From IMG/VR virus record IMGVR_UViG_3300027973_002814, positions 1 to 35,285 of that record: a stretch of 35,285 bases of DNA; one strand, given 5' to 3'. Made by a program: the position numbers and the translations under genes. Positions 8,500 to 31,659 of this stretch are shown here, piece by piece (position 1 is the stretch's first letter; each line of letters starts with the position of its first letter). The notes beneath the pieces are model-generated. The model made no database searches. It was given only the letters and a program-made list of their open reading frames with translations, and had not been told where the DNA came from. The DNA is from a virus.

Positions 8500-8502
8500 A
8501 TT

Positions 8503-9270: not shown

Positions 9271-9271
9271 C

Positions 9272-10300: not shown

Positions 10301-11118
10301 GCATTATTGACACAATTCATGATTTGAAAAAAGTAATTTCTTCTATCTGCGATTCTAAAGAAGAATTTTCCTTTTTTTACAATTTAACCCCTAGGCAACT
10401 ATTCGAACTTTCTAGTCTAGAAAGTTTTAGAAAAGATCAAGTTGAATTTGCGAGTCTAATAGATTCATTAAACGATAATTCTTTAAAAATTTTAAGAGAA
10501 GAAGTTTTTTCTATAATAAAAAGTCCCAAGAAAAAATCAGGAAATCAGTTTGGCTTTTATCACAATAACTTTGGTAGTTCTAAAGAAAGAATGAAACTTA
10601 CTTTAGAATTATTACAAAAATCTGTATGTAGAAACCCTGAACTAAAAATCTGCGAGTTAGGAACGAACGCAGGTGGGTGGACCATGTTATGGTTTTTGCA
10701 TAATAACATGATAGATCCAAAAAAGTATATTGGGTGCGATATAATCCCAGATTACTGCAGGCTGTTAAAGGTTTTTGGATCCAACATCTTACCAATAAAT
10801 CTAGCAAAAGAAGATCCAACAAAGATCTTAGAAAAAAACAATGATTTGTTGATTATTACTGAAGTAGTTGAACATATGCCAGATGAACAATCTGGTATGC
10901 AACTTTTAGAAAATTCGTGTAATCTATTGTCACCTCATGCTGACATGATTATTTCTTATCCGCGCGTAGTCAAAGATATATCTAATGATCCTATTGGGCA
11001 TCATTATCAACCTATTTTACAGAAAATTAATGAAAGAGTAGGATTAAAATTCTCTAAAATTGAGATGTATTTTGATGGCGTCAGAGAATATCATTATTTC
11101 ATTGATTATAAAACTTGA
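10297..11118 (+). CDS. Class I SAM-dependent methyltransferase
   Basis: 273 residues. A helical N-terminal region of about 100 residues precedes the Rossmann methyltransferase core. Motif I reads ICELGTNAGGW (118-128), a motif II acidic position lies in IGCDIIPDY (145-153), and the motif IV region is LLIITEVVEHMPDE (184-197), as in UbiE/Methyltransf_23-like enzymes. In this cluster it probably O- or N-methylates a sugar. The start overlaps the GDP-mannose epimerase stop by 4 nt. It is the last gene before a short AT-rich gap with a promoter-like sequence. The substrate is unknown. Confidence 0.8.
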   Translation: MSIIDTIHDLKKVISSICDSKEEFSFFYNLTPRQLFELSSLESFRKDQVEFASLIDSLNDNSLKILREEVFSIIKSPKKKSGNQFGFYHNNFGSSKERMKLTLELLQKSVCRNPELKICELGTNAGGWTMLWFLHNNMIDPKKYIGCDIIPDYCRLLKVFGSNILPINLAKEDPTKILEKNNDLLIITEVVEHMPDEQSGMQLLENSCNLLSPHADMIISYPRVVKDISNDPIGHHYQPILQKINERVGLKFSKIEMYFDGVREYHYFIDYKT

Positions 11119-11130
11119 TTAAAACTAAAA

Positions 11131-11141
11131 TATAAAATTTA
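11131..11141 (+). promoter_or_regulatory. Promoter-like TATAAAATTTA element
   Basis: In the 26-nt gap before the GT2 gene at 11145, the sequence TATAAAATTTA occurs. The identical 11-mer recurs at 16370-16380 in another gap. It resembles the T4 late promoter TATAAATA, and a gp55-like sigma factor is encoded at 19107. No Shine-Dalgarno sequence precedes the ATG four bases downstream, so transcription from here could be nearly leaderless. The gap is AT-rich, so chance is possible. Confidence 0.3.
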
Positions 11142-11144
11142 ATT

Positions 11145-11924
11145 ATGAAAATTGGACTTTGCATAACAAATCATTCTTCACAAAAAATCAGACCATATGG
11201 TAGGGATTTACTAGTAAATGCATTTCAAAGCTTTATAAAAAATTGCAAATATAATTTTGAGATCATCATAGTAGATAACCAATCAGATTTTCGTCTTGAC
11301 AATTCTTCTCATGAACTGTTAACGAATTCCAACGTTCATTACATCTATGTAGAAGATCAATGGAAACGTGGCCTAACTGGGGCCTGGAATGAAGGAATAA
11401 AAAAAGCTGTTGAATTAAATTGCGATATTATCTTAAACTCAAATGATGATTTAATTTTTAATGAATCTATTAATGATTTTATCGAAAAAATAATTTTGAA
11501 TGAGCATAAAGATATTTCCGTATTTGGTCCATTGACTAATGGTGTGAATGGATCTTTTGTAAAGATCCAATATTCAGAAAATACGAATCCAAACTTATCT
11601 AAAGAAATAGTAGCTAACGGTTGGGAAGGGTTTGTCAGCGGTTTCTTTTTTGGTTTCACTAAAAACTTCTACAAAAAATTTACTTATCCTGACGGGGATC
11701 TATTTGCTGAATTTGATAAATTCGATAAATCTTACATTCACAAGTATGCAGGAGATTGTGGCAAATGGGGCGGACAAGAGATGGAAATTTTGAGATTTAA
11801 GGAGTCTGGTGGTAAGGTTTTCGTTATTGGAGAATGTTGGATTTATCATCTAAAAAAGAGAGACTGGAACAAAGCTAGACAAATTGCAGGCGAGTATGGA
11901 TGGCATTTGTCTGAAAAATTTTGA
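11145..11924 (+). CDS. GT2 family glycosyltransferase
   Basis: A 259-residue GT-A inverting glycosyltransferase. The N-terminal strand IIIVDNQSD (41-48) carries the nucleotide-binding D44, GLTGAWNEGIKKA (76-88) is the uridine/ribose loop, NSNDDLIF (98-105) is the metal-binding DxD position, and WGGQEMEILRF (about 207-217) provides the catalytic-base E/D region. All are in order and spaced as in GT2. No membrane segments are seen, so it is a soluble or peripheral enzyme. It begins a new stretch after the promoter-like gap and lacks an evident ribosome site. Donor and acceptor are unknown. Confidence 0.85.
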   Translation: MKIGLCITNHSSQKIRPYGRDLLVNAFQSFIKNCKYNFEIIIVDNQSDFRLDNSSHELLTNSNVHYIYVEDQWKRGLTGAWNEGIKKAVELNCDIILNSNDDLIFNESINDFIEKIILNEHKDISVFGPLTNGVNGSFVKIQYSENTNPNLSKEIVANGWEGFVSGFFFGFTKNFYKKFTYPDGDLFAEFDKFDKSYIHKYAGDCGKWGGQEMEILRFKESGGKVFVIGECWIYHLKKRDWNKARQIAGEYGWHLSEKF

Positions 11925-11939
11925 GTTAAAGGACAAAAT

Positions 11940-12578
11940 ATGTTGAAAGTAAGCGAAAAAAACTATGAAAAAGACTTTGAAACTTCAACTCGTCTGGTAG
12001 GCAAAGAAAGAAATTCATGCCATTACTTGAAAGCTCTTTTTAACACTTTGGTAGAATTCAAGCCTCGTGTTTGTATTGAGATAGGTACTAACACAGGAAA
12101 CACTACGAAGGTGTTTCAAAGATATTTTGATCAGCATATGCCATCTGGCCTTTTAGTCACTTGCGATATAAAAAAATATGTTGATTTGTCACCACTGAAA
12201 AACGTAAAACAATTGATAGTAGCCCACCACATTCCACACATAGAAAAATTCCATAAAGTAAAAAAAGAAGAACTTAGCTTTTTTCCAGAAAATTCTGTTT
12301 CAGTTAACACACAATTGTTAAAAGATGTTGCTCAAGAGTATGATTTCGCATTTATTGACGGAGATCATACGAAAGATTCTTTTTTCAAAGACATTGAAAT
12401 TTGTGAAAATGTGCTGAAAGATCCTAAGTTAATGTTGTTGGACGACACAAAGGAGCCTTTCCATGAATGCTCTCAAGCATATTTTGACATTGTGAAAAAA
12501 GATGAAAAATATGAAACTTACGATTTCGAAGATTGGAAAAAGTTTGTTGGTTGTTCTTTAATAAGAAAGAAATTATGA
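11940..12578 (+). CDS. Class I methyltransferase, Methyltransf_24-like
   Basis: 212 residues. Motif I is CIEIGTNTGNTT (45-56). VTCDIKKY (73-80) supplies the ribose-binding acidic position, and FAFIDGDHTKDSFFKDI (136-152) followed by LMLLDD (164-169) is the signature of Methyltransf_24 and cephalosporin-hydroxylase-like methyltransferases that modify sugars. It lacks the long N-terminal extension of the methyltransferase at 10297, so the two are not recent duplicates. A good AAAGGA ribosome site lies at 11928-11933. It overlaps the following epimerase by 4 nt. A sugar O-methyltransferase role is likely from context. Confidence 0.8.
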   Translation: MLKVSEKNYEKDFETSTRLVGKERNSCHYLKALFNTLVEFKPRVCIEIGTNTGNTTKVFQRYFDQHMPSGLLVTCDIKKYVDLSPLKNVKQLIVAHHIPHIEKFHKVKKEELSFFPENSVSVNTQLLKDVAQEYDFAFIDGDHTKDSFFKDIEICENVLKDPKLMLLDDTKEPFHECSQAYFDIVKKDEKYETYDFEDWKKFVGCSLIRKKL

Positions 12579-13615
12579 AAACTTGTCTTGTAACTGGAGC
12601 AGCTGGGTTAATTGGGTCAGAAGTAGCTAGATACTTCCTTGATCTTGGATGTAAGGTCGTCGGCGTTGACAACAACATGAGAAAATGGTTCTTCGGTCCC
12701 AGTGGCGACACCGAACATGTTGCGGAATCTTTGTTAAATAATGTAAACTATTTTCATGAAAGTTGCGACATAAGAGACAGAGCCGAAATTGAAAGAATCT
12801 TTAAACAAAAGAAACCTGATTTCATCGTCCATGCCGCCGCTCAACCTTCTCACGATTTGGCTGCAAAAATACCTTACGAAGATTTTCATACAAATGCAGT
12901 AGGTACCTTGAATTTGTTAGAATCAACAAGGCAATTTTGTAAAGATTCGCCATTCATCCAAGTCAGCACAAATAAGGTTTACGGCGACACGCCTAATAGG
13001 CTTAAGCTGGTAGAAAAAGATACACGTTACGATTATTTTGAAAAAGATTTGTACGAAGGTATCGATGAAACGATGTCGATAGATCAGACTACTCATTCTT
13101 TGTTCGGAGCATCAAAAACAGCAGGAGATCTACTAGCACAAGAATATGGTAGGTATTTCAACATGCCAGTTGGCGTGTTTAGAGGAGGATGTCTAACGGG
13201 TCCTCAGCATGCCGGTGTCGAATTACACGGATTTTTATCGTATATTGTGAAATGTGCAGTACAGAATAAACCATACACAATTTTTGGGTATAAAGGGAAA
13301 CAAGTTAGAGATCAAATACACTCTTACGATGTGTGCACAGCCTTCTACGAATTTATAAAATCGCCACGTGCGGGTGAAGTCTATAATATCGGAGGTTGTC
13401 GCGACAATAGTGCTTCTATCTTGGAGATTATTCATGTCTTAAAAGACATGGGTTATGATTTGAAATTTTCTATTTCAGATACACCTCGAATGGGTGATCA
13501 CATTTGTTACATCACTAACATGTCCAAATTCAAATCACACTTTCCAGCTTGGAAACACGAAAAAGATTTGAACACAACAATTAAAGAGATTGTAGAATCT
13601 TCCAAAATTAAATGA
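12575..13615 (+). CDS. NAD-dependent epimerase, CDP-paratose/tyvelose 2-epimerase-like
   Basis: A 346-residue extended SDR. The start at ATG 12575 puts the GAAGLIG cofactor loop at residues 8-14; an upstream in-frame ATG at 12533 would add an unconserved tail. HAAAQPSHDLA (86-96), STNKVYGD (131-138), TRYDY, GIDETM and GYKGKQVRDQIHSYDV (238-253) match the RfbE type CDP-paratose 2-epimerase family. At the catalytic Y-x-x-x-K site the sequence is HSLFGASK, so residue 177 is Phe and K181 is kept. The STNKVYG loop supplies another Tyr (Y136). The exact sugar nucleotide is therefore uncertain: a C2 epimerisation of a CDP- or other NDP-sugar is the family precedent. It overlaps neighbours on both sides. 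Confidence 0.82.
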   Translation: MKTCLVTGAAGLIGSEVARYFLDLGCKVVGVDNNMRKWFFGPSGDTEHVAESLLNNVNYFHESCDIRDRAEIERIFKQKKPDFIVHAAAQPSHDLAAKIPYEDFHTNAVGTLNLLESTRQFCKDSPFIQVSTNKVYGDTPNRLKLVEKDTRYDYFEKDLYEGIDETMSIDQTTHSLFGASKTAGDLLAQEYGRYFNMPVGVFRGGCLTGPQHAGVELHGFLSYIVKCAVQNKPYTIFGYKGKQVRDQIHSYDVCTAFYEFIKSPRAGEVYNIGGCRDNSASILEIIHVLKDMGYDLKFSISDTPRMGDHICYITNMSKFKSHFPAWKHEKDLNTTIKEIVESSKIK

Positions 13616-14550
13616 AAAAAGTATCCTTTGGAATAGTCAACTGTAACCGGCTTTTCTATCTTAGAAGTTGTTTAGAGTCTTTGTTGGACACCACATCAGG
13701 TTACGAAAATAAAGAGTTCTTTGTAGTAGATAATGCATCTGTCGAATCAGGGACGGAAGAGTACCTAAAGAACATAGAATCTAGAGGCGTAACTGTCATT
13801 AGAAAAAAAGAAAGAAATCCGGCAAATGAATTTGCAATTGGATTAAATTCAATTATTTCTGAAGCCTCTGGTGATTATGTTTGTTTGTTACAAGGTGACA
13901 TGCAGTTCGTGCTTCCTGATTGGCTGAATGACATCATCAGTTTTTATGAAAAGAACCTTGACATCGTTGGAAGCGTTATGTTGGATGCTCAAAGAAGAAT
14001 CACGCATGATTCTCATCAAATTGTCAAGTTTTCTCAGGACAGACATCCTACGTTTTGCAAGAATATATTCTATGCAGACGTGTCTAGAGATCCAATCAGC
14101 CCCGCTGCCGACGCCATTTTTAGCAGAAAAGTAATAGAACAAATCGCTCCCTGGAGTGAGAGAAATGTGAACCATGAAGGAAGTCTAGATTCAGAGAATG
14201 AAATGCGTTATAGGGTTCTTAGAATGATGAAGGAAGGTAGCATACCGCAGTATACAACGGCGTTATCATCTGTTCCTCAAGCTATTGCAATTTACACGGA
14301 CCCGCGCGGGACGCAAGGTCGAGTCCGAGGAAATAAAAGGTACGGTCAGTACTGGCCCGCAAAAGATGCTTCAGGTTGGAAATACTATGAGTATATAAAT
14401 GAGCATCAGTTTGATTTGTCAAAGGTAAATTCGATAGAAGAAGTGGCAAATCCCATTGGATTTGCGAAGTTTCTTGATGAAAAAGGTAACTGGTTAAAGA
14501 ACCCGATTAGACCGGAATCAGCATCAACAGAAGATTGGACAGAACTGTAA
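13612..14550 (+). CDS. GT2 family glycosyltransferase, variant DxD
   Basis: 312 residues. The N-terminal FGIVNCNRLFYLRSCLESLL and EFFVVDNAS (35-43) are standard GT2 openings. NPANEFAIGLNSIISEASGDY (about 69-89) is the nucleotide loop. The metal site reads LLQGDMQF (92-99), so only one aspartate (D96) remains from the usual DDD. The C-terminal 100 residues are rich in aromatic and charged residues and have no known domain that I recognise. It is the last gene of the low-G+C glycan block; after it base composition and codon use change sharply. Confidence 0.8.
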   Translation: MKKVSFGIVNCNRLFYLRSCLESLLDTTSGYENKEFFVVDNASVESGTEEYLKNIESRGVTVIRKKERNPANEFAIGLNSIISEASGDYVCLLQGDMQFVLPDWLNDIISFYEKNLDIVGSVMLDAQRRITHDSHQIVKFSQDRHPTFCKNIFYADVSRDPISPAADAIFSRKVIEQIAPWSERNVNHEGSLDSENEMRYRVLRMMKEGSIPQYTTALSSVPQAIAIYTDPRGTQGRVRGNKRYGQYWPAKDASGWKYYEYINEHQFDLSKVNSIEEVANPIGFAKFLDEKGNWLKNPIRPESASTEDWTEL

Positions 14551-14565
14551 AACAATCATCAAACT

Positions 14566-14583
14566 GAGTATATAGTCATACTT
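14566..14583 (+). promoter_or_regulatory. Small dyad in the gap upstream of the sugar dehydrogenase
   Basis: GAGTAT (14566-14571) and ATACTT (14578-14583) can pair around a 6-nt loop, with one G-T wobble at the base. It fills much of the 36-nt gap after the GT2 gene and ends three bases before the ATG at 14587, where no ribosome-binding sequence is visible. It is weak alone. The two following gaps also hold dyads. Confidence 0.25.
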
Positions 14584-14586
14584 CAT

Positions 14587-15504
14587 ATGAATAATTCATC
14601 AATTGCAGTTATTGGTCAAGGTTTCGTAGGGGGTTCTCTCACAACTGTCTTCTCAGAAAGAGGCTTCAACGTACTGGTATACGATAAGGCAGGTAAGGTC
14701 TCACCTGGTGCACACGATTATCGACCTGACTCTCTAAAAAGTCTTGTTAATTTTGCCGAAGGATCTGTCGTAGGATTTTCCAAAGTTTATTTCGTGTGTC
14801 TTCCAACACCAATGTATGAGGATGGAAGTGCTGACCTCAGCATTGTTGAGGGTGTACTAACAGAGCTTTCGCAGATCCCGGGCGAGAGGATTGCAGTAGT
14901 AAAGTCCACCATTCCACCTGGCTCAACTGAGAGATGGAATAAAAAGTTTGCAGAAACAGGTCTTCGTGTTGTTTTCAATCCTGAGTTTTTGACAGAGGCC
15001 AACGCTCTGGATGATATGCGAAACCAAAACAGGATCGTCCTAGGCGGACCTCGTCCGTACATCAACACTGTGAAGCAGGTATTCCAGACGGCATTCCCAA
15101 AGGTGCCGCTTGTAAAGACTTCTTCGACCACTGCCGAGATGGTGAAGTATGTCACAAACAACTTCCTGACTGTAAAGGTGGCCTTTGCAAATGAGATGTT
15201 CCAGGTCTGCGAAGCCCTAGATAAATCCGGACTAAATGTGGATTATGATAAGGTAATTGAATATGCTAAGTATGATTCTAGGTTAGGCTCCAGCCACTGG
15301 AGTGTACCTGGACCGGATGGCCAACCTGGGTTCGGGGGTCACTGTTTCCCGAAGGATGTGAATGCAATGATTGATGTGGCAAAGACGCTGGGCGTGAAAC
15401 CGACAGTTCTAAAGTCCGCATGGGAAAAGAACCTTGAGGTACGATCTGACAAGGATTGGGAGAAGATGGCAGGTCGTGCAGTTTCTAAAAAACCGAAGGG
15501 TTGA
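14587..15504 (+). CDS. UDP-glucose/GDP-mannose dehydrogenase family, lacks C-terminal domain
   Basis: 305 residues, against about 390-450 for bacterial UDP-glucose 6-dehydrogenases. The family oxidises a nucleotide sugar to the uronic acid in two NAD-dependent steps. Domain order: Rossmann domain with GQGFVGG (10-16), VCLPTP (70-75) and STIPPGST (107-114); then NPEFLTEANAL (131-141), EMVKY (184-188) and the catalytic GGHCFPKD (250-257, thioester Cys253). The chain ends about 48 residues later, after the central helical dimer domain, with no UDP-binding C-terminal Rossmann domain. Base composition is much richer in G+C than the genes to its left (two counted lines gave 47% and 53%). No ribosome site is evident. 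Confidence 0.85.
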   Translation: MNNSSIAVIGQGFVGGSLTTVFSERGFNVLVYDKAGKVSPGAHDYRPDSLKSLVNFAEGSVVGFSKVYFVCLPTPMYEDGSADLSIVEGVLTELSQIPGERIAVVKSTIPPGSTERWNKKFAETGLRVVFNPEFLTEANALDDMRNQNRIVLGGPRPYINTVKQVFQTAFPKVPLVKTSSTTAEMVKYVTNNFLTVKVAFANEMFQVCEALDKSGLNVDYDKVIEYAKYDSRLGSSHWSVPGPDGQPGFGGHCFPKDVNAMIDVAKTLGVKPTVLKSAWEKNLEVRSDKDWEKMAGRAVSKKPKG

Positions 15505-16355: not shown

Positions 16356-16414
16356 TTTTTGAGTTGTGCTATAAAATTTATTACAACTTTTAGAAAGTTA
16401 GTAATATATCGTTG
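16356..16414 (+). promoter_or_regulatory. 59-nt gap with TATAAAATTTA element and overlapping dyads
   Basis: The largest true gap in the window. It contains TATAAAATTTA (16370-16380), identical to the element at 11131. That element lies between AGTTGT (16362-16367) and ACAACT (16383-16388). A second inverted pair, AACTTT (16385-16390) and AAAGTT (16394-16399), shares bases with the first, so the two stems cannot form together. No ribosome-binding site precedes the ATG at 16415. A late-type promoter for the GT4 pair and the downstream genes is the likeliest reading. Confidence 0.35.
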
Positions 16415-17659
16415 ATGCAGAAAAAAACGATTTTATTGCTTTCGGACCACCCTTTATCCACTTCTGGAGTAGGAACCCAGGCCCGCTGGTTAATTCATGG
16501 ATTAATTGCTACTGGCAAATATAAGTTCAAGTGCTTTGGTGGTGCAGTAAGACATGAAGACTACAGAACTGTAGTCGTAAATGAAGATTTTATCATAAAG
16601 CCGACTAACGGCTTTGGCGATAGAAACATGCTTCGACAAGTTCTTGCTACAGAACGACCGGATGTTCTAATGTTGTTTACAGATCCTAGATTTTTTATTT
16701 GGGCATGGGAAATGGAAGATGAAATTCATCAGATATGCCCGATAGCATACAACCATCTGTGGGATAACGGACCATGGCCAGAATTCAATAGGGTTCTTTA
16801 CGAATCGACTGATCTCGTTAACTGCATCAATTGGCCGACATATCAGATGGTTAAAGAGAGATTTCCGGAAAAAACCAATTACATTCCACATGGTGTACCA
16901 AAAGAATTGTATTATCCAGTTTCTGATGAAGATTCTATCAAGTTTAAGAAAAAAGTTCTAGGAAATGATAGAGTCGATCACTTTGTTCCCATGTACGTTT
17001 CTAGGAACGCCCGCCGCAAGATGCCAAGCGATATTTTAGTTTCATGGAAACAATTTTTAGATGCGTTGCAAGCAAAGCATGGTCATAAGAAAGCAACATT
17101 GTTAATGCATACCGACCCGCTTGATCATGAAGGACCCAACCTTTATCATGTAGTAGAGATGTTAGGAATAACTGATAACGTCAAGTTTTCAAAGAACAGG
17201 GTTGATTTTAATGAAATGAGAGAAATCTATGCAGCTTGTGACACGGTAGTGAATCGTAGTTCTAATGAAGGGTTCGGTCTTCCTACGTTGGAGGCAATGA
17301 TGTGTGGTAAACCTATTATTGCAATAAAGACGGGCGGGTTGAGTCGTCAAGTGGAAGATATAGAGACTGGAGAACAATATGGGATTGCTTTAGAGCCTGA
17401 TGTTAAGTCTCTTGTTGGAAATCAAATGGTGCCTTACATCTATGAAGACTTGATATCTCATGAAAAGTTATCTAATGCATTCATGGAGATGTATGAATGG
17501 GGTCCTGAGAAAAGAAAGCAGGTTGGAAAACGTGCTTTAGAACATGCTCATAAAGATTATGATTTGAAAGAGATTGTTTCTTCTTGGGATAATTCTTTAT
17601 CCAAATTAATTTCTGATTGGGAAAATCGACCGCAGCGATGGGAGGTCAAGTCTTTATGA
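16415..17659 (+). CDS. GT4 glycosyltransferase
   Basis: 414 residues from the ATG at 16415; a TTG one codon earlier is less likely. It is a GT-B retaining glycosyltransferase. The N-terminal domain begins ILLLSDHPLSTSGVGTQARW with the glycine-loop acceptor/phosphate site, then has IPHGV between domains. The C-terminal donor domain has YVSRNARRKMP (the R/K that contacts the donor diphosphate) and SSNEGFGLPTLEAMMCGKP (about 281-299) with E-x7-E. The protein lies in a unit with the next GT4, which it overlaps by 4 nt. This pair lies beside late genes rather than in the main glycan block, which fits a role in decorating virion components or the late-infection surface. Confidence 0.88.
   Translation: MQKKTILLLSDHPLSTSGVGTQARWLIHGLIATGKYKFKCFGGAVRHEDYRTVVVNEDFIIKPTNGFGDRNMLRQVLATERPDVLMLFTDPRFFIWAWEMEDEIHQICPIAYNHLWDNGPWPEFNRVLYESTDLVNCINWPTYQMVKERFPEKTNYIPHGVPKELYYPVSDEDSIKFKKKVLGNDRVDHFVPMYVSRNARRKMPSDILVSWKQFLDALQAKHGHKKATLLMHTDPLDHEGPNLYHVVEMLGITDNVKFSKNRVDFNEMREIYAACDTVVNRSSNEGFGLPTLEAMMCGKPIIAIKTGGLSRQVEDIETGEQYGIALEPDVKSLVGNQMVPYIYEDLISHEKLSNAFMEMYEWGPEKRKQVGKRALEHAHKDYDLKEIVSSWDNSLSKLISDWENRPQRWEVKSL
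17641..17646 (+). promoter_or_regulatory. Strong Shine-Dalgarno deciding the start of the second GT4
   Basis: GGAGGT at 17641-17646 lies nine bases before the ATG at 17656, inside the end of the previous gene. It fixes the start at 17656 rather than the in-frame ATG at 17617. It is one of the strongest ribosome sites in the window. Confidence 0.8.
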
Positions 17660-20281: not shown

Positions 20282-21781
20282 ATGAATTGGAAGCTTGCAG
20301 AAGAAGTAGCCCAAGGCGTTTATAAAGAAAATGGAATGCTTAGGTCTGCGTTCAACTCGATCACATCCAATATAGTCAATTTAAATCCAATTTTTCTCAG
20401 GTACGTTGTTGAAGAAGTTATTTTTTCTCCTAAGCTTTTGAATGATGATGAGTTATCTGATATAAATCGACGTATAGGTTACATTGATAACATTCTATAT
20501 GCCAAAGGTAAAATATTGCCTAGGAATACTATCATTGCTAAGGAAATAAGAGACGTTAACCGTGGAAACGATACTCGAGCCGCAAAGTCTAGAATTTTAT
20601 TACCTTTTTTCTCATCACATCTTGCAATGCCTTGTAAACCTGGAGAACATGTCTGGGTCATATATGAAGACGTAATGAATCAGCAAGGGTTGGGATATTG
20701 GGTTAGTAGAGTTGTTGGGTTTGATCACATAGATGACGTAAATCATTCTCATTTCCCACGTAACGATGATTCTTCATTCAACGCTCAAGTAGACTTGAAC
20801 ACCGTTCCTCGTTATCATTTTAAGAATGGACACTTCATTGAGATTGTTGATAGAGAAACTCAAAATAGAGGTTCTCGCTTAGATTTTTTCTTTGTAAAGA
20901 ATAAAGAAAATCAAAATCCTGATAACGTGTACGAAGATATTTTATTTTCTTCCAATGGAACGAAAGCCACGGTTAAAGAACCAGTTCCTAGATTTAAAAA
21001 ACGTCCTGGAGATCTTGCGTTGGAAGGAAGTAACAACTCTTTAATCGTGTTGGGTAATGAAAGATCTTTTTCGGAAGACGCTAAAGTTTCTTCAGCTGAG
21101 GTTTTAGATGGATTCAAGGATAGTGCAGGAACCATTGACATGGTTGTTGGTAGAGGTTCTACCCAACAGACGATGGGAAAAATCATTAAAAATGATTTAA
21201 AATTTGATGAATTAGATAAGTTTGCTTTAAACGTTCAAGCTAAAGAAGGAGATCCTGATTTTAATTCTGATAGAAGCAGAATTTTATTATCTCAAAGAAC
21301 GTTGCCTGATTCTAAGTTCTCTATAGCAACTTATAATCAGGAAAAAAATAAAATTTCAGATTCAGCCGACGGCGATGCCGCCGTCGTGATTAAAACAGAT
21401 AAAGTTCGTATAATAGCTAGATCAGATGTGCAGCTGTTGGTCCAAGGATTCCAACCAGCCACAGATCCAGTCGGCAAAAATATAAAAGAGTCATTAACTG
21501 ACGCTAAAAATTGGGCATCAATCACTATTAAGTCAGATGGAAACATAGTTTTTACTCCTTCAGAAATGGGGTATATAAAGTTAGGAGGAGATGATGCAGA
21601 TAAAGGTATTTTATGCACAGCTACTCCTGTTTCAGCTGTTAATGGTGGCGTAGAAGGTCAACCAATCGGTAATGATGCTGGCGGTCGGTCAGGCGGGTCT
21701 TTGGCTGCAAGCCCGCAAGGAAATACCCCTGCAATACATCCAGCCAATGGAACTTTTGCAAATAAGGTTTTAGTGAAATAA
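20282..21781 (+). CDS. Baseplate spike/hub-like structural protein
   Basis: 499 residues. Residues about 98-150 (RILLPFF ... MPCKPGEHVWVIYE ... GYWVSRVVG) look like the OB-fold of the gp5/gpV hub family, where the protein docks on the tail tube. The C-terminal third is repetitive and beta-rich (VVIKTDKVRIIARSDVQLLV, ITIKSDGNIVFTPSE), compatible with an intertwined beta-helix spike, and ends in a glycine-rich tail. No lysozyme domain is present, unlike T4 gp5. The position before gp25-like and gp6-like genes supports a central baseplate location. Assignment is by pattern, not by close identity. Confidence 0.6.
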   Translation: MNWKLAEEVAQGVYKENGMLRSAFNSITSNIVNLNPIFLRYVVEEVIFSPKLLNDDELSDINRRIGYIDNILYAKGKILPRNTIIAKEIRDVNRGNDTRAAKSRILLPFFSSHLAMPCKPGEHVWVIYEDVMNQQGLGYWVSRVVGFDHIDDVNHSHFPRNDDSSFNAQVDLNTVPRYHFKNGHFIEIVDRETQNRGSRLDFFFVKNKENQNPDNVYEDILFSSNGTKATVKEPVPRFKKRPGDLALEGSNNSLIVLGNERSFSEDAKVSSAEVLDGFKDSAGTIDMVVGRGSTQQTMGKIIKNDLKFDELDKFALNVQAKEGDPDFNSDRSRILLSQRTLPDSKFSIATYNQEKNKISDSADGDAAVVIKTDKVRIIARSDVQLLVQGFQPATDPVGKNIKESLTDAKNWASITIKSDGNIVFTPSEMGYIKLGGDDADKGILCTATPVSAVNGGVEGQPIGNDAGGRSGGSLAASPQGNTPAIHPANGTFANKVLVK

Positions 21782-21784: not shown

Positions 21785-24289
21785 ATGGGTTGTTTAGTAG
21801 ACGCAGGAATTTTAAATCCTGATAAAACGCTGTCTCAAAATGCAAAAGACAACTTTATCAAGGAGGTAAAAGAGATAATAATTTACGGATCAGCGAATAC
21901 TCCTACTCCTTCTCTTTTTGGATGTGGAGATGAAATACCTCCGACACCTGGAGCTACTTTTGAAAATATTAAACTAGAAGACGAAACAATCTACGGTTCA
22001 TTCCATAGAGATATATTAAAAAATAAGTATGAAAAATTTGCAGCTGCTTTAGATGTAGAATCCACACACAGCTTGTTACCTCTAATCGCTGATCCTCTTG
22101 CATTGGCTGGCAAGTTAGGAGTTGACCTTCCTGCACCATCATTCCCGGATGGATTTATACCGTACTTTTCAGGTCTTTTAATTCCAAAACTTAGTTTAGA
22201 TCTTTTTGACGCAGGAATACCAGACTATCTATTCCCGCCTGCCCTCGCCGCAAAATTACCAGATTTTATTTCAATACCACAACCACCAGCCTTGTTTCCT
22301 CTTCCTGCAGCTCTTCCCCCTCCTATTCCGGGAGTGACTCCTCCCCCGCTGCCAGAAATAACTCCTCCAGAGTTTCCTGACATACCTCAACCTATTGACC
22401 TAGCAATACCACAAGTTCCTACTCCTCCAGTTGAGTTAGCTTTAGGAGAACTCTTGTCCGTCGACGCCGCAATAGTTACAACCATACCTAAGTTATTGGG
22501 CGGCATAATCGCGGATATTCCAAAATTAGTTTTGAAATTGACTGATTTACCTTCATTATTTTCTGATATTTGCAAAAATGTTTCTGAGTCAGGGATATTT
22601 GGTGAAGAAAAAGAAAATGAAAAATTAAAAAAGATCTATAACAGAGTTTTGTCAAAAAAACTTTCTTCTTGTTTATTTGTTGCTGCACTGGCTTCGACGA
22701 TAGGTTCTGGAAAAGGTAGCGTATCTTCCGCTGTTTCTGAGAAAGCTACGAACGTACCTGCTCCTCCTGCTCCTCCTCCAACTCAGGCCGAGGCTCCTTC
22801 TTGGCAAGATAGAATAAAATCAAAAGCTGATCAGTGCGCTGGTTTGTCTTACGGAGGAGATCGAGAAAACTACGTTCAAACTCTTTATTACATCGAATAC
22901 GTAAATTCGACCCTTGCGAGTAACAACGTGTCGGTTTATGGAAAGCCTGTAATACCAGCTAGATTACCAGAAAAGGGAACCAAATATCAATATCAAGAAG
23001 ATCTAGTAGAAGCTTTTTCTTCCAATATTATTTCTGGAACCAACGTCAGCGGCGGCCCACAAGAATTAGGCGAAGCAAATAAATACGGCGTAGAAGATAG
23101 CTACGGATTCTATAAATATGTTTTGCTTTCAGGACAAACAGATTCATCTTGTGCTCTGTTTGCAAGATCTTGTCTTTATTCAGCAGGGTCAAAAAATGAA
23201 TTTATGATATCTCAATATCCACCTTCAACTGCAATAGCTGGTCTCAGAGGGTTGGCTACGTTAAAAAATTACAATTGGTTAATAAAACAAAACGATTCTA
23301 CTTTTGTGACAAACGATCCATTGTTTACATACTCCAACAGTGTCCTTGACAAAACTGACATAACAGTACTCACAGACGGGTGGTCTCTAAAAGCAGATTT
23401 AACGCCTGTATATGAAAACCCAATATTACAAAATAGTGTTAAGAAGCAAGAAGAATTAGCTTGTATTTCTTTGTATATGCTGCAAGGAATTGCAGAGTCT
23501 TCAGGAAAGTTTCCTGCTCTTGAAATCGGGGATATTTTAATAATGAAATCTCCGGCGTCTGCAAAAAGGACATTTGATGATACTCACATAGCAGTCGTTT
23601 ACGGAGATGTGAATGACGGGATCGAATTTAAGAGACAACAAGATATTAAAGACGGGAATTATACTTTACCAAAATCTATACTGGTCGTTGAAGGTGGATT
23701 AGAAGATGATTTGAATAAAGGACCTGTAAATAAAAATGCCAATAATCTTTTGCCACAAGCCGCGTATGATGAGTGGGTAAAATTGAGAGATGATTTTGTA
23801 AAAAGCAAGAAAAATGATGAAGGACAAAAAAATAAATTAAAAGGATACGCAAAAAAAGCATTTTTTTTAGATGATGGATCGGTTCGGGTGATAGCTCCTG
23901 ACGGTCTTGTTTCTAGTGATGAAACTGAAAGACTTACCGTCCCTCGGCCGACAAGAATAGATCGCGGAAATTTCAGCGAAGGATATATTAAAACCGGAGG
24001 AAATAAGGAAACAGATGGATTTTACATAAGAAAGGTGGGGACAAATAAAATTGGAGGAGATGGTCCTTTTAGACGAGTGGAAATGATTATAAAAACAAAG
24101 AATTTTTTGTCGATAGAATTAATTGAAAAAGAAAACCCTGAAGCGAAAGATCAGTGTCGTTTAGCTTTAGCAATGCAAGATAAGCATCCGATAATGAAGA
24201 AATTTGTTGGTGGGTTGAAAGATAAAGTTAGGTTAGGTTTATTAATACCTGAATTATTCCCTTCTTGGCCCCGCCGCCCCAAAAAGTAA
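21785..24289 (+). CDS. Large proline-rich tail protein with candidate NlpC/CHAP-like hydrolase domain
   Basis: 834 residues. Residues about 148-216 are dense in proline (PPALFPLPAALPPPIPG and similar), with a second short Pro/Ala tract at 325-338. The C-terminal half looks like a cysteine amidase: SSCALFARSC with C456 at a helix start, FPALEIGDILIM (576-587), DTHIAVVYGD with H601, then ILVVEGG (632-638) in the position of the third polar residue. This is the C-H-polar order of NlpC/P60 and CHAP peptidoglycan hydrolases, although the C-to-H spacing is longer than usual, so an insertion would be required. The last gene before a terminator, it is probably a baseplate-associated cell-wall enzyme or needle component. 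No signal peptide is seen. Confidence 0.55.
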   Translation: MGCLVDAGILNPDKTLSQNAKDNFIKEVKEIIIYGSANTPTPSLFGCGDEIPPTPGATFENIKLEDETIYGSFHRDILKNKYEKFAAALDVESTHSLLPLIADPLALAGKLGVDLPAPSFPDGFIPYFSGLLIPKLSLDLFDAGIPDYLFPPALAAKLPDFISIPQPPALFPLPAALPPPIPGVTPPPLPEITPPEFPDIPQPIDLAIPQVPTPPVELALGELLSVDAAIVTTIPKLLGGIIADIPKLVLKLTDLPSLFSDICKNVSESGIFGEEKENEKLKKIYNRVLSKKLSSCLFVAALASTIGSGKGSVSSAVSEKATNVPAPPAPPPTQAEAPSWQDRIKSKADQCAGLSYGGDRENYVQTLYYIEYVNSTLASNNVSVYGKPVIPARLPEKGTKYQYQEDLVEAFSSNIISGTNVSGGPQELGEANKYGVEDSYGFYKYVLLSGQTDSSCALFARSCLYSAGSKNEFMISQYPPSTAIAGLRGLATLKNYNWLIKQNDSTFVTNDPLFTYSNSVLDKTDITVLTDGWSLKADLTPVYENPILQNSVKKQEELACISLYMLQGIAESSGKFPALEIGDILIMKSPASAKRTFDDTHIAVVYGDVNDGIEFKRQQDIKDGNYTLPKSILVVEGGLEDDLNKGPVNKNANNLLPQAAYDEWVKLRDDFVKSKKNDEGQKNKLKGYAKKAFFLDDGSVRVIAPDGLVSSDETERLTVPRPTRIDRGNFSEGYIKTGGNKETDGFYIRKVGTNKIGGDGPFRRVEMIIKTKNFLSIELIEKENPEAKDQCRLALAMQDKHPIMKKFVGGLKDKVRLGLLIPELFPSWPRRPKK

Positions 24290-24293: not shown

Positions 24294-24316
24294 AAAAAGG
24301 CGGACCGTCTTTTTTT
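24294..24316 (+). terminator. Rho-independent terminator
   Basis: AAAAAGGCG (24294-24302) and CGTCTTTTT (24306-24314) form a 9-bp stem with one G-T pair and a 3-nt loop, followed by a run of T to 24316. It begins 5 nt after the stop of the 834-residue gene. It is the clearest terminator in the window. Confidence 0.75.
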
Positions 24317-24335
24317 GCTTTCGATATTTAATCGA

Positions 24336-24803
24336 GTGGCATCTTTTAGCTTCAAAAGTTCTGGTAGAAATACTTCGTTTAAAACTACCGACGTCCAACC
24401 GCCTACTGTCATCATTCCCGTTGGCATAAAAACGCCTCTTCAGTTGGGCGAAAAAGATGTATTTGCGATGCATTACAGCCTCGTCGATCAAGTTCACGAT
24501 AATTTGCGAAATTTATTGTTGACTAACTGGGGTGAACGTTTGGGATTTTACTACTTTGGCGCAAATTTAAGAGAGCTGACGACAGAGATATCCAACGTTG
24601 ACACTTTCGATGAACTAGCTATTCAAAGAATTAAGCAAGCAGTGGGAACCTGGATGCCATTTGTTAATTTAAAAAACTTTTCCTCTCAAATAGATGATGC
24701 CAGCGATAACAAGACAGGAATTATAAAAATTACTATCACCTACAGCGTTCCTCAACTATTTATTGAGAATCGAGCTCTTCAGATATCTTTGTTCGTAATA
24801 TAA
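24336..24803 (+). CDS. gp25: Baseplate wedge protein, gp25/GpW-like
   Basis: 155 residues using GTG at 24336, which gives MASFSFKSSGRN, the typical N-terminus of gp25-like proteins. A longer frame from TTG at 24315 would start inside the terminator. The fold signature is present: VFAMHYSLVDQVHDNLRNLL (first helix region), NWGERLGFYYFGANLRELT (the loop with acidic residues), then AIQRIKQAVGTWMPFV, and paired strands ending GIIKITITYSV. gp25 forms part of the inner wedge of the contractile baseplate and starts sheath assembly. No strong ribosome site is visible; the gene follows the terminator by only 20 nt. Confidence 0.8.
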   Translation: MASFSFKSSGRNTSFKTTDVQPPTVIIPVGIKTPLQLGEKDVFAMHYSLVDQVHDNLRNLLLTNWGERLGFYYFGANLRELTTEISNVDTFDELAIQRIKQAVGTWMPFVNLKNFSSQIDDASDNKTGIIKITITYSVPQLFIENRALQISLFVI

Positions 24804-24819: not shown

Positions 24820-26661
24820 ATGGCTTCAGATAACAACTTAAAACAGTTTAGAATTAGAAACTATCTCGCTAAAGACTTTGATTCTTTAAGAGCTCAATTG
24901 CTTGAATACGCTCGGCTGTATTATCCCGATAAAATTCAAGATTTTTCTGAAGCTTCAGTCGGTGGATTACTTCTAGACCTTGCGGCTTACGCAGGCGATG
25001 TGATGACTTTTTATTTGGATCACCAATATAACGAACTAGATCCAAATACGGCCGTAGAAACTAGAAATATAGAAAAAATCATTAGAAATTCAGGCGTCGT
25101 TATCACTGGAGCTTCTCCCGCTGTTGTCGAAGCCACGTTATCCTTGGAAGTACCAGCTACCTTAAATACTTCTACTAACTCTTATGAGCCTGTGGTCAGC
25201 GCAATGCCCGTGGTAAGGCAGAATACGCAGTTTACTTCTTTTTCCGGGATAGATTTTACTCTCTTGCAAGATTTAGATTACAGCAGAAAAAAGTCAGATG
25301 GAACATACGCGGCTAACATAAAAATTGCCAGAGTCGGTCTTGACGGAAATCCATTGACATTTTCTATGTCTCTTTCAGGAGTTTGCATTTCTGGTAAGCA
25401 AGCTACTGAAACTTTTCCTTTGGGGGTTTTTACACCTTTTCCTACAATTACGCTTTCAAATAATAACGTGACCGATGTCTTATCTGTGGTCGATAACAAA
25501 GGTAACACTTATTATCAAGTCAATTATTTGACAGATGATGTCGTCTATAAGAACGTAATAAATCTAGCAAAGGATTCTGAAGAAATTTCAGACGCTTTAA
25601 AAGTTATACCTGCTCCTTACAGGTTTGTGACGAAAGTAGATCTATCTAATAGAGCTACAACTCTTATATTAGGCGGCGGAGAAGATACAAGCATAGACGA
25701 TGATGTGGTACCAGACCCATCTGATTTTGCTGTTTCTTTTCCATACTCAAAAATCTTTACCAGATCTACGCTAAATCCTTTACAACTATTGAAGACTAGA
25801 ACGTTGGGTGTTTATGCGCCTAATTCTGTTTTAACTGTCACTTATCGTTACGGCGGCGGCTTATCTCACAACGTTTCTGCAAAATCTTTAAACTATATTT
25901 CTACTCTTTTGATAGATTTTCCCAAGAATCCTCCTTTAGAGATAATCTCTACCGTAAGAAATAGCTTGTTGGTAACCAATGAAGCCCCTTCGTCAGGAGG
26001 AGAAGATGCTCCGTCTACTGATCTCTTGAAGAACTTAATACCTTCTTCAAAAAATTCACAGGATAGAATCGTGACGAAAGAAGACTTGTTGGCTAGAGTT
26101 TATTCAATACCGACAAACTTTGGTAAGGTTTTCAGGGCCGCGATTAGATCTAACGAAAACAACCCGATGGCTTCTCAACTCTTTATAGTTTGCAGAAATT
26201 CAAACTCCAAGTTGATGTACGCATCTGATACGTTGAAAGAAAATCTCAGAAAGTATTTGAATCCTTATAGATTAGTGAATGACGCCATCGACATTTTAGA
26301 TGCTTACATAGTGAATCTTACTTTTGCGTTTGATGTTCTTGTAGACCCATCATTGAATAAACAAATTGTGTTACAAAATGCATTAATAGAAGTTAAAAAT
26401 CTGCTAAGGACTACAAATTTTTCGATAGATCAGCCGATCATTATTTCTGAAATCACTAATGTAATATCTAGAACGCCTGGGGTCGTTTCGGTCATTAATG
26501 CTACATTCTATGGCATAAATGATGTAGTAAATAACCGTACCTATAGTAACGTAACATTTAACGTAAAAGATAACACGCGAAGAGGAATGATCTACCCTCC
26601 TCCTGGCGGAATATTTGAGATAAAATATCCTGAGGTTGATATAGTTGGAAGGGCAGTCTGA
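24820..26661 (+). CDS. gp6: Baseplate wedge protein, gp6/J-like
   Basis: 613 residues, close to T4 gp6 in length. The first 75 residues carry the hallmark YLAKDFDSLRAQLLEYARL, then DFSEASVGGLLLDLAAYAGDVMTFYLDHQYNEL, characteristic of gp6-like/baseplate J-like proteins that bind neighbouring wedges. The C-terminal part (LLARVYSIPTNFGKVFRAAI, ILDAYIVNLTFAFDVLVDPSLN) matches the gp6 dimerisation region. AGAGTTAAG upstream supports the start. The ATG of the next gene overlaps the stop by one base (TGATG). It forms the wedge ring of the baseplate. Confidence 0.85.
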   Translation: MASDNNLKQFRIRNYLAKDFDSLRAQLLEYARLYYPDKIQDFSEASVGGLLLDLAAYAGDVMTFYLDHQYNELDPNTAVETRNIEKIIRNSGVVITGASPAVVEATLSLEVPATLNTSTNSYEPVVSAMPVVRQNTQFTSFSGIDFTLLQDLDYSRKKSDGTYAANIKIARVGLDGNPLTFSMSLSGVCISGKQATETFPLGVFTPFPTITLSNNNVTDVLSVVDNKGNTYYQVNYLTDDVVYKNVINLAKDSEEISDALKVIPAPYRFVTKVDLSNRATTLILGGGEDTSIDDDVVPDPSDFAVSFPYSKIFTRSTLNPLQLLKTRTLGVYAPNSVLTVTYRYGGGLSHNVSAKSLNYISTLLIDFPKNPPLEIISTVRNSLLVTNEAPSSGGEDAPSTDLLKNLIPSSKNSQDRIVTKEDLLARVYSIPTNFGKVFRAAIRSNENNPMASQLFIVCRNSNSKLMYASDTLKENLRKYLNPYRLVNDAIDILDAYIVNLTFAFDVLVDPSLNKQIVLQNALIEVKNLLRTTNFSIDQPIIISEITNVISRTPGVVSVINATFYGINDVVNNRTYSNVTFNVKDNTRRGMIYPPPGGIFEIKYPEVDIVGRAV

Positions 26662-28197: not shown

Positions 28198-31100
28198 ATG
28201 GCAAACTATAACGTCAACCAATACATTCCTTCTTTTATCAAGGCAGCTTCTGCTGGTGATAATCGTTTATACGTTCTGAGGTTTGAGGATTTACCTGAAT
28301 CAGATGTCGAAAATGATGATTCTTTTGCCTATACCTCTGAAGGAACAGCGCTCAAATCAACGCAACAGCTGAACGTAGATTGGACCAAATTTGAGAATCA
28401 TACATTTTTTATGTCTGCAGAAGCCAAGGTTAACTTGGCTTTTGAACAGATCATAAACAACTATCCATTCGACGGTACTAAAGAAGAAATAGAGAGTTTT
28501 TTTACTAAATTAACTGGATACGAAAAGTGGGTATTTGATCAATTCCCTAAATACAAAGGAGAATTGCTCTTTTCAGGTACACAACTCTCAGAAACAACTC
28601 CTAATAAAGGCACTTACATAATCGTTAAAGACATGCCTGGTGCCTTGTTTCCTGAATTGAGTCCAAAGGTGACGACTAATTCAGCTGTGTTGAATCCAAA
28701 AAACAAGAAATCGATGAGTATAGAATTTCATCTATACATCCCTAACATCTCGACTGATGGAACGCAGGTTGTGTTTCAAAAGATAAATGATGTAGATAAT
28801 CATGGATTTTCTTTTAGATTAAAGCCGACGATGTCAACCACCCAGGCAGAATCTCAATTTGAGATCTTTGCTGGAACTTCCGCGATGACTGTCGCCGCGA
28901 ATCTAGAGAAAGGAAATTTTAATCATATTTGTTTGATTTACAATCGAGAAAAAAATCTACCAATTTTACAGTTTTACGTGAATGAGAGTCTAGTGGCTGA
29001 GTCTTCACAAAATATTGAGTTCAGCGATTTGAAAATAGATTATTCAGATTTTATCATAGGGTCAGGCTCTCAATACAACATCTCCACCACCATAGTGACG
29101 CCGCAACAAACATTGTCTGGTGTGTTGGACGAATTTAGGGTTTTTCATGAGGTTCGTTCACCTTCTCAGCAAACTTCTTTTGCTAAAAAATCGATATATT
29201 CAACCCCTAGCTTAAAGCTTTATTACAGATTTAACGAGCCTCCTCCACCTCTTTCTCCGTTTGCTAACGACGTTGTCAATTCAATTGTCTTGGATAGCTC
29301 TGGAAACTCTCTGCATGCATATATTTCAAACTTTTCAGATGAATTAAGAAAAGATGCAGAGACGGACACGAATAGCAAGATGATTTACGAGAAAAATCTG
29401 CTGTCTCCGATTCTGTTTCCTGCTAATGAAGACGTTTTATCTCTAAATGCTAATCTGTTGGCAGCGGCAAAAGAGTATGACGAAGTTAATCCTAACCTAA
29501 TAACCAAACTCATACCTCGGCATTATTTGCTGGAAGGTGCCGCGCAAGAAGGGTTAGAGACCGTAAACCAGAACAATGGATCTCCGTATGGCGGAACGGG
29601 GATACCAGGACAGGGCAAGCTTAACAACGTTCAGTTAATGCTTTCTTTGCTTTACATATGGGCCAAATTTTTTGATGAAATCAGGTTGTTCATTGACGCA
29701 TTTTCTAACTTAAAAAATGTTGAATATGACACCAACGAAAGTATTCCTAACAATTTCTTATTTGACATAGCGAAGAGTTACGGATTGTTTCTGCCTCCAT
29801 TATTGAACAACTCTACAATCGAGCAGTACGTCGATGGTGAGAATATAGACGCAGCTCAAAAAAGCAATGAACAGTTATCGTTACGATCTGTACAACATGA
29901 GTTATTGAGACGAATTTTGATAAACGTTCCTTCCGTTATTCGATCAAAAGGTACTCAACATTCTATTAAGAGCTTTTTAAGAGCTGTTGGAATAGATCCT
30001 GATAGCAGCATGCGTTTTAGGGAATATGGCGGGCCGACGTACAAACACCTCATAAAGTCTAGAGAACAAAAGACAGACTTAAATGCGATGATAAATTTCG
30101 CAACATCGTCTTACGTGTTCTCCACGTATCTATCTGCCTCCAGATATGAACCAGGTTATCCGCACCCAGCAGGTACGTTTACAAGCAAAGATCAGTATGG
30201 TTTATCTATATCAAATGATCCTGATGACGGTTTATTCACCTCAGGTTCATGGTCTTATGAGTCAATTGTCAAGTACAACTTGAAGTCTGTTCCCCTGCAG
30301 AACTTAACTCAATCTATTGTTAGAATGTGTGTGACGGGTTCGAACATAGCAAACCCTGGTCTGCTAGCAAACCTGGTCGCATTTTATGATGAAAATCAAC
30401 CAAAAGTAGAGTTGTACCTACGTCCAGGTAATGCCGCCGCCTCCCCGTTGCTTTCCATGGGATTGCAATTACCAAAAGAAGCCATCTTTGGTGGAGACAT
30501 TTGGAACATTTCCTTTGGATGTAATCGCAATGACAACTTCGGTTCTGTCGCCTCTTCTTCGTACTATCTTCGTGTGGGTTCTCAATCGGATGGGGAGTTG
30601 AGATATTACGAGACGACATCTTCTTACTTTTATGAGTTATCTTCTGGAATGCCTAATGAAAACGCTTTCCGACAGTTGAACTCTCAAACAAATGCTTCAG
30701 GAACTTTTTTGGCGTTCGGTTCAAACCAGGTGGTGCCTGTTGGAACAACTTCGGCCTACCTGTACTTGAATAATTCTAACTATTCACCTGCAGCTGCCAG
30801 AGTGACAGACTTTAATGGTAGGCTTGCTAAGGCCAGATTTTGGTCTAAACAATTTTCAGAAAATGAATGGATTGAACACATACGGAATTATCAATCATTA
30901 GGTGTCGAAGATCCTAAGAAAAACTACAACTACCAAAAATACATCTCTGGTTCTTTTGAGAAGCTTAGGTTAGATTCGTTCACCAAACAGACCGAGAAGA
31001 TTGCATCAAATTCTGGTCAAATAACATTTTTGGATTTTAGCGAAAATGAAATGCATCTTTTTGGTTCAGGATTCCCAACAAATGAAAGCAGCGTGACTCC

Positions 31101-31659
31101 TGAGTTCTTCAGGTACTCTTATCTTTCTCCCTACTTCGATGAAGCTATATCCAGCGATAAGATAAGGGTTAGAGGGTACAATGATGAAAGTTTAATTCAA
31201 CAGTATCCCTGGGCATCTTTTGCTCCTGTTCACGAAATACCAAGATCAGAAAGCCCCACAGACGATGTTAGGTTTTCTATAGATTTTTCGCTTGTTGACT
31301 CGATCAACAGAGACATTGCAAATATGTTCTCTACCTTTGAGTCTTTAGAAAATTACATAGGGTCTCCTGAGCTCGTCTACTCTCCCGACTATCCTGATCT
31401 AGAAAGATTGAGGGTGAATTATTTCAATCGTTTAAAAAAGAAATTAGACTTCAAAGCATTCTTTGAGTTTTATAGCTGGTTTGACAGCACTGTTAGCACA
31501 TTCATCGAACAGTTGTTACCTAGAAAGACGGCATACAAAGGAACAAACTTTATCGTAGAATCTCACATGTTAGAAAGAGCCAAGCACGAATATTATAGCA
31601 CCGATATATACTTAGGAACTCCTAACAGAAATAACATTGTCGATAAATTTTCTACGTAA
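28198..31659 (+). CDS. Large baseplate/tail protein with LamG domains
   Basis: 1153 residues. Domain plan: N-terminal region (1-160) conserved with phage baseplate proteins; a concanavalin/LamG-like jelly roll at about 162-330 (SIEFHLYIPN, ending GVLDEFRVFHEVRSPSQQ); a helical segment 430-620 with ILINVPSVIRSKGTQHSIKS and RAVGIDPDSSMRFREYGGP, the signature seen in tail-protein-I/gp7-like baseplate components; and a second LamG-like repeat at about 690-900 (GRLAKARFWSKQFSENEWI). A C-terminal part of about 250 residues follows. LamG folds commonly bind glycans, so the protein could contact host polysaccharide, or be a purely structural scaffold. The start is 5 nt after the previous stop. Confidence 0.75.
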   Translation: MANYNVNQYIPSFIKAASAGDNRLYVLRFEDLPESDVENDDSFAYTSEGTALKSTQQLNVDWTKFENHTFFMSAEAKVNLAFEQIINNYPFDGTKEEIESFFTKLTGYEKWVFDQFPKYKGELLFSGTQLSETTPNKGTYIIVKDMPGALFPELSPKVTTNSAVLNPKNKKSMSIEFHLYIPNISTDGTQVVFQKINDVDNHGFSFRLKPTMSTTQAESQFEIFAGTSAMTVAANLEKGNFNHICLIYNREKNLPILQFYVNESLVAESSQNIEFSDLKIDYSDFIIGSGSQYNISTTIVTPQQTLSGVLDEFRVFHEVRSPSQQTSFAKKSIYSTPSLKLYYRFNEPPPPLSPFANDVVNSIVLDSSGNSLHAYISNFSDELRKDAETDTNSKMIYEKNLLSPILFPANEDVLSLNANLLAAAKEYDEVNPNLITKLIPRHYLLEGAAQEGLETVNQNNGSPYGGTGIPGQGKLNNVQLMLSLLYIWAKFFDEIRLFIDAFSNLKNVEYDTNESIPNNFLFDIAKSYGLFLPPLLNNSTIEQYVDGENIDAAQKSNEQLSLRSVQHELLRRILINVPSVIRSKGTQHSIKSFLRAVGIDPDSSMRFREYGGPTYKHLIKSREQKTDLNAMINFATSSYVFSTYLSASRYEPGYPHPAGTFTSKDQYGLSISNDPDDGLFTSGSWSYESIVKYNLKSVPLQNLTQSIVRMCVTGSNIANPGLLANLVAFYDENQPKVELYLRPGNAAASPLLSMGLQLPKEAIFGGDIWNISFGCNRNDNFGSVASSSYYLRVGSQSDGELRYYETTSSYFYELSSGMPNENAFRQLNSQTNASGTFLAFGSNQVVPVGTTSAYLYLNNSNYSPAAARVTDFNGRLAKARFWSKQFSENEWIEHIRNYQSLGVEDPKKNYNYQKYISGSFEKLRLDSFTKQTEKIASNSGQITFLDFSENEMHLFGSGFPTNESSVTPEFFRYSYLSPYFDEAISSDKIRVRGYNDESLIQQYPWASFAPVHEIPRSESPTDDVRFSIDFSLVDSINRDIANMFSTFESLENYIGSPELVYSPDYPDLERLRVNYFNRLKKKLDFKAFFEFYSWFDSTVSTFIEQLLPRKTAYKGTNFIVESHMLERAKHEYYSTDIYLGTPNRNNIVDKFST

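Follow-up and report, generated by a model that had tools for sequence, protein, structure and literature searches.

The gene at 21785–24289 of the window (the whole stretch of DNA analysed, 35,285 bases of the genome of an uncultured virus) very probably encodes a tail-associated peptidoglycan hydrolase with the role that lysozyme has in T4 gp5. In the reading that we prefer, with a probability of roughly 0.82, the product is fixed by an N-terminal dock, is associated with the baseplate hub and carries a papain-like cysteine domain doing the task of the gp5 lysozyme. The computed features behind this prediction are the domain itself, its fold, its conserved residues, the position of the gene and the exchange of modules on the dock, a true lysozyme among them. 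The strongest evidence for the wall-hydrolase reading is the set of modules that relatives carry on the same dock.

Gene neighbourhood and the N-terminal dock

The gene and its neighbours in the window were placed as follows.

20282–21781, + strand: spike-like baseplate protein of 499 aa; an ORF that is a conserved upstream neighbour in related loci
21785–24289, + strand: whole gene, dock plus predicted cysteine-hydrolase domain; 834 aa, ATG start, with full-length relatives in loci L001, L002, L003 and L006
21785–22798, + strand: N-terminal dock, residues 1–338, delimited by an iterated HMM and common to 79 distinct ORFs that differ C-terminally
22220–22429, + strand: proline-rich segment inside the dock, residues 146–215, with 26 prolines by sequence count
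24315–24803, + strand: gp25-type baseplate wedge protein (phrog_261, E 8.9e-6; phrog_43, E 2.8e-5)
24820–26661, + strand: gp6-type baseplate wedge protein (phrog_6, E 3e-15)

The four genes are closely packed on the + strand, and the ATG of the 834-aa ORF lies 3 bases past the stop of the spike-like ORF. The label of this upstream neighbour is based on its position and appearance, and family and PDB searches with it returned no significant match. As the earlier note had stated, it appears to have no enzyme domain of its own; none was found near significance in Pfam, PHROGs or NCBIfam. Behind the gp6-type gene, a 1153-aa ORF (28198–31659) with a Laminin_G_3 domain (E 6.1e-12) is probably a baseplate or fibre part. 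Ahead of the baseplate genes, a series of ORFs (143–15504) resembles sugar-nucleotide, heptose and glycosyltransferase genes when read by eye, and just behind this run a glycosyltransferase was recognized at 16412–17659 (PF00534, E 3.5e-15).

A single-sequence search of IMG/VR returned three relatives of the window protein and a profile search one more. In tblastn searches of 50,697 phage records, the window protein, the full-length proteins of L017, L109 and L049, and the modules of L101 and L150 had no match, and no relatives were found in the genome collection scanned. A wider set was gathered via the neighbouring genes, with the spike-like protein and gp6 as queries, giving 193 sequences, namely the window and 192 locus records (often several from one contig; three reference phages are among them), in which dock ORFs were sought between the spike-like gene and gp25. 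The iterated profile of residues 1–338 recovered 120 ORFs, 79 of them distinct. Among the 80 distinct gp25 loci, a count that left out loci lacking gp25 or an upstream spike, 61 had a dock ORF in the interval from the spike-like gene to gp25, and 19 (L082, L088, L104, L110 and 15 others) had none. Where present, the dock ORF is mostly separated from either neighbour by no more than a few tens of bases. The spike–gp25 gap of the dockless loci, read by eye for a small tip protein, is occupied by small ORFs.

No homologue of the dock was found in Pfam or PHROGs, and a search of the open PMC literature returned no papers on the family, which has no name to search by. An AlphaFold2 run on four full-length sequences gave a pLDDT of 45 and was used for no claim.

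The earlier note had described a proline-rich stalk of about 70 residues on the N-terminal side of C456. The enrichment itself stands: the densest 70-residue window of the protein (residues 146–215) has 26 prolines, a number that 2000 shuffled versions of the sequence never reached (mean 11.8, maximum 18). The stalk, however, was not supported because the stretch lies within the conserved domain 1–338, where its length varies, rather than being a free-standing element, and fades in distant relatives; the densest 60 residues hold 9–25 prolines across dock relatives, with weak density in the distant ones.

Sequence and predicted fold of the cysteine domain

The features of the C-terminal part, numbered by residue of the 834-aa protein, were as follows.

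22784–24130, + strand: papain-like cysteine-hydrolase domain as modelled, residues 334–782 (AlphaFold2, VIA-align)
23150–23152, + strand: codon of C456, proposed nucleophile, in SSC[A/G]xxxR; present in 29/29 domains, the rows being picked by the Cys motif; at a helix start in the model
23177–23524, + strand: insert between the Cys and His regions, residues 465–580; much shorter in compact relatives
23528–23533, + strand: G582-D583 ahead of the His strand, invariant in 29/29
23585–23587, + strand: codon of H601, which lies on a beta strand of the model and is the putative general base; present in 29/29
23690–23716, + strand: EGGLEDDLN motif, residues 636–644, with E636 the proposed third catalytic residue and G638, D641 and N644 invariant

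For the alignment, 30 domain sequences were chosen and L071, which is without the stretch of the Cys motif, was dropped, leaving 29 domains from environmental loci. Residues C456, R461, G582, D583, H601, G638, D641 and N644 were conserved in 29/29, with the conservation of C456 and R461 being partly by construction because rows were chosen by the Cys motif, Arg included; that of the remaining positions does not stem from this choice, and the Cys/His pattern exceeds chance. When these 29 domains were realigned with MAFFT, the same core was recovered, and Y363 and S454 were invariant too. The proposed triad of Cys, His and an acidic residue was conserved almost throughout the set, with Cys in 29/29 of these motif-chosen rows, His in 29/29 and Glu or Asp in 28/29.

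These results agree with the earlier note in placing C456 in SSCALFARSC and H601 in GDILIMKSPASAKRTFDDTHIAVVYGD, and in the long insert between the two, the spacing being 145 residues in the window protein and ranging from 70 to 249 in the 29 domains. For the polar residue that it had sought near 632–638, the best fit is the acidic E636 of the motif EGG(L/Q)xDxxN (25 domains have E there, 3 have D and that of L031 has G), an agreement of position. Among the 14 compact relatives, the spacing from the His to position 636 was 18–20 in 11, with 22, 24 and 42 in L031, L146 and L156, respectively; among the 15 long ones, it was 33–36 in 12.

The order and spacing of Cys, His and acidic residue agree with those of the CHAP domain of LysK (CHAPK), for which PMC4126393 gives Cys54, His117 and Glu134, hence distances of 63 and 17; the compact relative L016 has 70 and 20. 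The same paper describes the Cys and His mutants of CHAPK as dead, and Glu134 as less conserved, with its mutant only weak or reduced. It also gives His as the third residue of Escherichia coli Spr, whereas that of the window domain is acidic.

No Pfam, PHROG or NCBIfam model recognizes the window's cysteine domain. The Pfam CHAP and NlpC/P60 models were not matched by the window protein with an E limit of 1, nor by three relatives with one of 5, and PDB profile searches with the domain found nothing. Comparison of its profile with six CHAP-type endolysins gave a weak and short match of 24 columns, in correct register about GD...H (Prob 24 %, E 8e-4), and another module of the set, run as a control, gave E 0.58. 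At the sequence level, the link is too weak for membership in either the CHAP or the NlpC/P60 family. The domain seems to represent a hitherto undescribed family within the papain-like fold; its signature is SSCxxxxR / GD / H / EGGQxDxxN.

The structure of residues 334–782 was predicted by AlphaFold2 from the 29-sequence alignment with a pLDDT of 84.3 and a pTM of 0.84. In the model, C456 opens the helix at 123–133 (residues 456–466) and H601 is contained in the strand at 267–272 (residues 600–605). Foldseek returned nothing below E 0.001 (best E 1.0 in PDB and 0.11 in BFVD), and the fold call rests on VIA-align, run on Foldseek's candidates, because the Foldseek E-values were not significant. 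By VIA-align, the model was similar to Ly7917 (Z 8.9, rmsd 3.5, 139 aligned), Lys2972 (Z 8.8, rmsd 3.6, 139 aligned), NlpC2 (Z 8.4, rmsd 3.5, 125 aligned), CHAPK (Z 8.0, rmsd 3.6, 142 aligned), Tae3 (Z 6.6, rmsd 3.3, 112 aligned) and Tse1 (Z 6.0, rmsd 4.0, 134 aligned). The first clearly unrelated protein appeared at Z 3.2; above it, all rows were by title cysteine amidases, peptidases or relatives of these, except for one putative xylanase.

The predicted domain combines a Cys that begins a helix, a His on a following strand and similarity to solved members of the papain-like fold. Together with the location of the gene in a baseplate cluster, this supports the earlier suggestion of a tail-associated cysteine hydrolase. 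CHAP endopeptidases (LysK CHAPK, Ly7917, Lys2972 and PlyPy) share with it the papain-like fold, the Cys at the helix start, and the His and acidic residues on following strands; the window domain differs from them in having no Pfam match, in its EGGQxDxxN motif and long insert, and in being baseplate-encoded and fused to a dock. The NlpC/P60 peptidases, Tae3 and Tse1 fall in the same fold class in VIA-align but have no sequence-level match to the window domain.

C-terminal modules on the dock

To compare what follows the dock, the post-dock parts of the 79 distinct ORFs were clustered by BLASTP at E < 1e-5. This gave seven groups of at least two parts, with 26, 10, 8, 8, 4, 2 and 2 members, the largest (26/79) being that of the window's cysteine domain. 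The other dock ORFs were six singletons with a C-terminal part of their own of at least 60 residues, that of L046 with 38 residues left, and 12/79 that stop at the dock. The absence of the dock in 19/80 loci, combined with these 12 docks without an enzyme, indicates that the enzyme is dispensable at this baseplate position.

Two of the modules are recognized wall hydrolases. In L124 the dock is fused to a Phage_lysozyme domain (PF00959, E 2.2e-16; endolysin phrog_7, E 4.8e-22), and in L161 to a transglycosylase-like domain (baseplate hub phrog_196, E 9.8e-27; PDB 9udh, ‘lytic transglycosidase’, E 2.3e-22). The module of L026 gave weaker matches than that of L161 (phrog_4928, E 1.2e-12; phrog_196, E 4.9e-7). 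Their presence on the same dock, within a baseplate gene cluster, is consistent with a tail-associated hydrolase. The proposal of the earlier note that the window protein stands in for the T4 gp5 lysozyme gains most from this comparison, because a relative has a Phage_lysozyme on the same dock at the same gene position.

Beyond the cysteine domain and the modules of L124, L161 and L026, no module had a significant match; for X3, X5, L011 and L069 nothing significant was found in Pfam. The labels Metallo, GH73like, GLM and CysB are our own motif readings. The sole support for Metallo was a sub-threshold match to Peptidase_M74 (E 0.069), a PDB profile search with it having given nothing, and GH73like had no PDB match. 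One module has paired HxxxxFD and HEDHxH motifs when read by eye, like those of murein metallopeptidases, and another resembles a cysteine enzyme of a second kind. The CysB profile aligned with that of the cysteine domain of the window type (CysA) over GD...H...[ED][AG]GQ (E 6.9e-5, Prob 63 %), and the two are therefore probably related. The exchanged modules are thus in part unclassified, and sequence matches make a wall-hydrolase identity firm for the lysozyme and the transglycosylase.

On a tree of 60 distinct gp6 rows, the 14 module states required 26 changes, compared with a minimum of 13 and an average of 36.8 for shuffled labels. The modules therefore follow the gp6 tree only in part. 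It is rather likely, on these patterns, that in a large group of uncultured myophages the wall-cutting function has moved off the spike to a docking protein, and that, with the dock and the baseplate genes around it retained, the enzyme is a cassette exchanged repeatedly among cysteine hydrolases (CysA; CysB/CysB2), lysozyme, transglycosylase, probable metallopeptidases and unclassified folds. If this is true, the unclassified folds on the dock would be new wall hydrolases. A conserved dock with exchangeable enzymes would offer a positional route to new peptidoglycan hydrolases, in which any dock fusion is a candidate, including the X3, X5, L011 and L069 modules. It would also make testable the question of which part of the envelope forces a change of puncturing enzyme while the rest of the baseplate stays.

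Several individual loci depart from the common arrangement. L026 has a single ORF (6083–8146) that chains the dock, the transglycosylase-like domain and a gp25 domain, the last spanning residues 581–670 (PF04965, E 1.2e-5, just under Pfam's own cut-off). In L123 (767–3436), the cysteine domain has an ORF to itself immediately after the dock ORF, and the X5 module of L046 (4611–6454) is likewise on a separate ORF; both are natural splits at the joint of dock and enzyme. ORFs were also seen between the spike-like and dock genes in L124 (3207–3992) and L076 (4869–5450), which from their sequence appearance we take to resemble GIY-YIG homing endonucleases. In Microcystis phage Mel-JY01, a distant relative, the gene occupying the dock position matched endolysin phrog_181 (E 9.9e-33) and is annotated as a chitinase; it had no Pfam match, and its likeness to the dock ORFs is one of gene position.

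Proposed mechanism and alternatives

Tail-associated wall hydrolases are already known; T4 gp5 and the hub of Anabaena myophage A-1(L) carry theirs as integral domains of the spike or hub. The account of T4 in PMC3004832 places the enzyme in the spike protein gp5, between the OB-fold and the beta-helix, and has this lysozyme open the peptidoglycan. The window gene resembles this system in that a wall hydrolase, as predicted, is encoded among baseplate genes beside the putative cell-puncturing spike, and in that its relative L124 has PF00959. It differs in that the enzyme, a predicted cysteine hydrolase, is carried by a protein distinct from the spike and equipped with a dock. The window ORF matched no gp5 family in Pfam or PHROGs, and it is a different ORF from that of the spike-like protein, which places it outside the gp5 family. 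For A-1(L), the hub protein gp15 is described in PMC10966104 as having wall-degrading domains tested in vitro, among them a peptidase active on host cells. The likeness lies in a baseplate hub component with wall-degrading domains; unlike the window protein, gp15 has these domains built into a barrel hub protein, and its likeness to the dock is one of description.

From gene position, the exchange of modules on the dock and the predicted fold, we infer the following mechanism. The dock (residues 1–338) would fix the protein to the hub or spike, and the C-terminal domain (about 340–780) would be a papain-like cysteine amidase or peptidase, in which C456 may act as nucleophile and H601 as base, with E636 most likely orienting the histidine. 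After tail contraction and passage of the spike through the outer membrane, the domain would cut a peptide or amide bond of the peptidoglycan, and the opened wall would let the tube reach the inner membrane. The enzyme would thereby act from a separate protein beside the spike, with lineages keeping the dock and swapping the enzyme module. Catalytic activity, the bond cut, attachment to the hub and timing are all predicted parts of this scheme.

The papain-like fold is also found in proteases, with staphopain and cathepsin among the VIA-align rows, and gp5 of T4 is itself cleaved in maturation according to the account in PMC3004832. The cysteine domain might accordingly be a protease of phage proteins that processes the hub, spike or tape-measure protein, or frees itself from the dock, and leaves peptidoglycan untouched. 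We regard this as very unlikely, given that the docks of relatives bear a glycan-cutting lysozyme or transglycosylase, which would be incapable of protein processing, and that the top structural rows are mostly cell-wall enzymes. The same identified modules (GH24-type lysozyme and transglycosylase), which target peptidoglycan, argue against an effector that is carried by the tail tip and acts inside the host on a protein or small peptide. Such a role would be in keeping with the presence of glutathionylspermidine amidase and phytochelatin synthase among the VIA-align rows and with the VgrG-like manner in which C-terminal modules are exchanged on the dock, VgrG orthologues with varied C-terminal effector domains being described in PMC3004832; it nevertheless seems less probable still. 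Evolved VgrG proteins of type VI secretion, as presented there, share with the dock family a constant tip or dock part and exchangeable C-terminal enzyme modules. The window protein would instead belong to the tail of a phage; those modules of its family that were recognized are wall hydrolases, and Pfam and PHROGs contain no known homologue of its dock.

It is hardly probable at all that the gene encodes an endolysin that serves phage release when infection ends and lies in the baseplate operon by chance. The fold is frequent among endolysins, but here it is fused to a 338-residue dock whose site between the spike-like gene and gp25 recurs in the 61 loci counted above; dock-only members exist without an enzyme, and the single chain of L026 joins dock, transglycosylase and gp25.

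The enzyme part has also diverged more than the dock between near relatives. Between the window protein and that of L001 (851–3340), amino acid identity was 96.4 % in the dock and 57.7 % in residues 339–834, whereas the spike part, gp25 and the gp6 part were about 92–95 % identical, placing the drop at about residue 340. L002 and L003 displayed a milder form of the same pattern, with 75.8 % versus 52.8 %. Wall chemistry or host inhibitors, if they are what drives change, would be expected to make the enzyme diverge faster than the dock. Exchange of a diverged allele of the module and fast evolution would both explain the drop. The difference at four-fold sites between the window and L001 was 0.535 in the enzyme part and 0.36–0.48 in the dock, gp25, gp6 and spike parts, which is suggestive of recombination at about residue 340 but not decisive.
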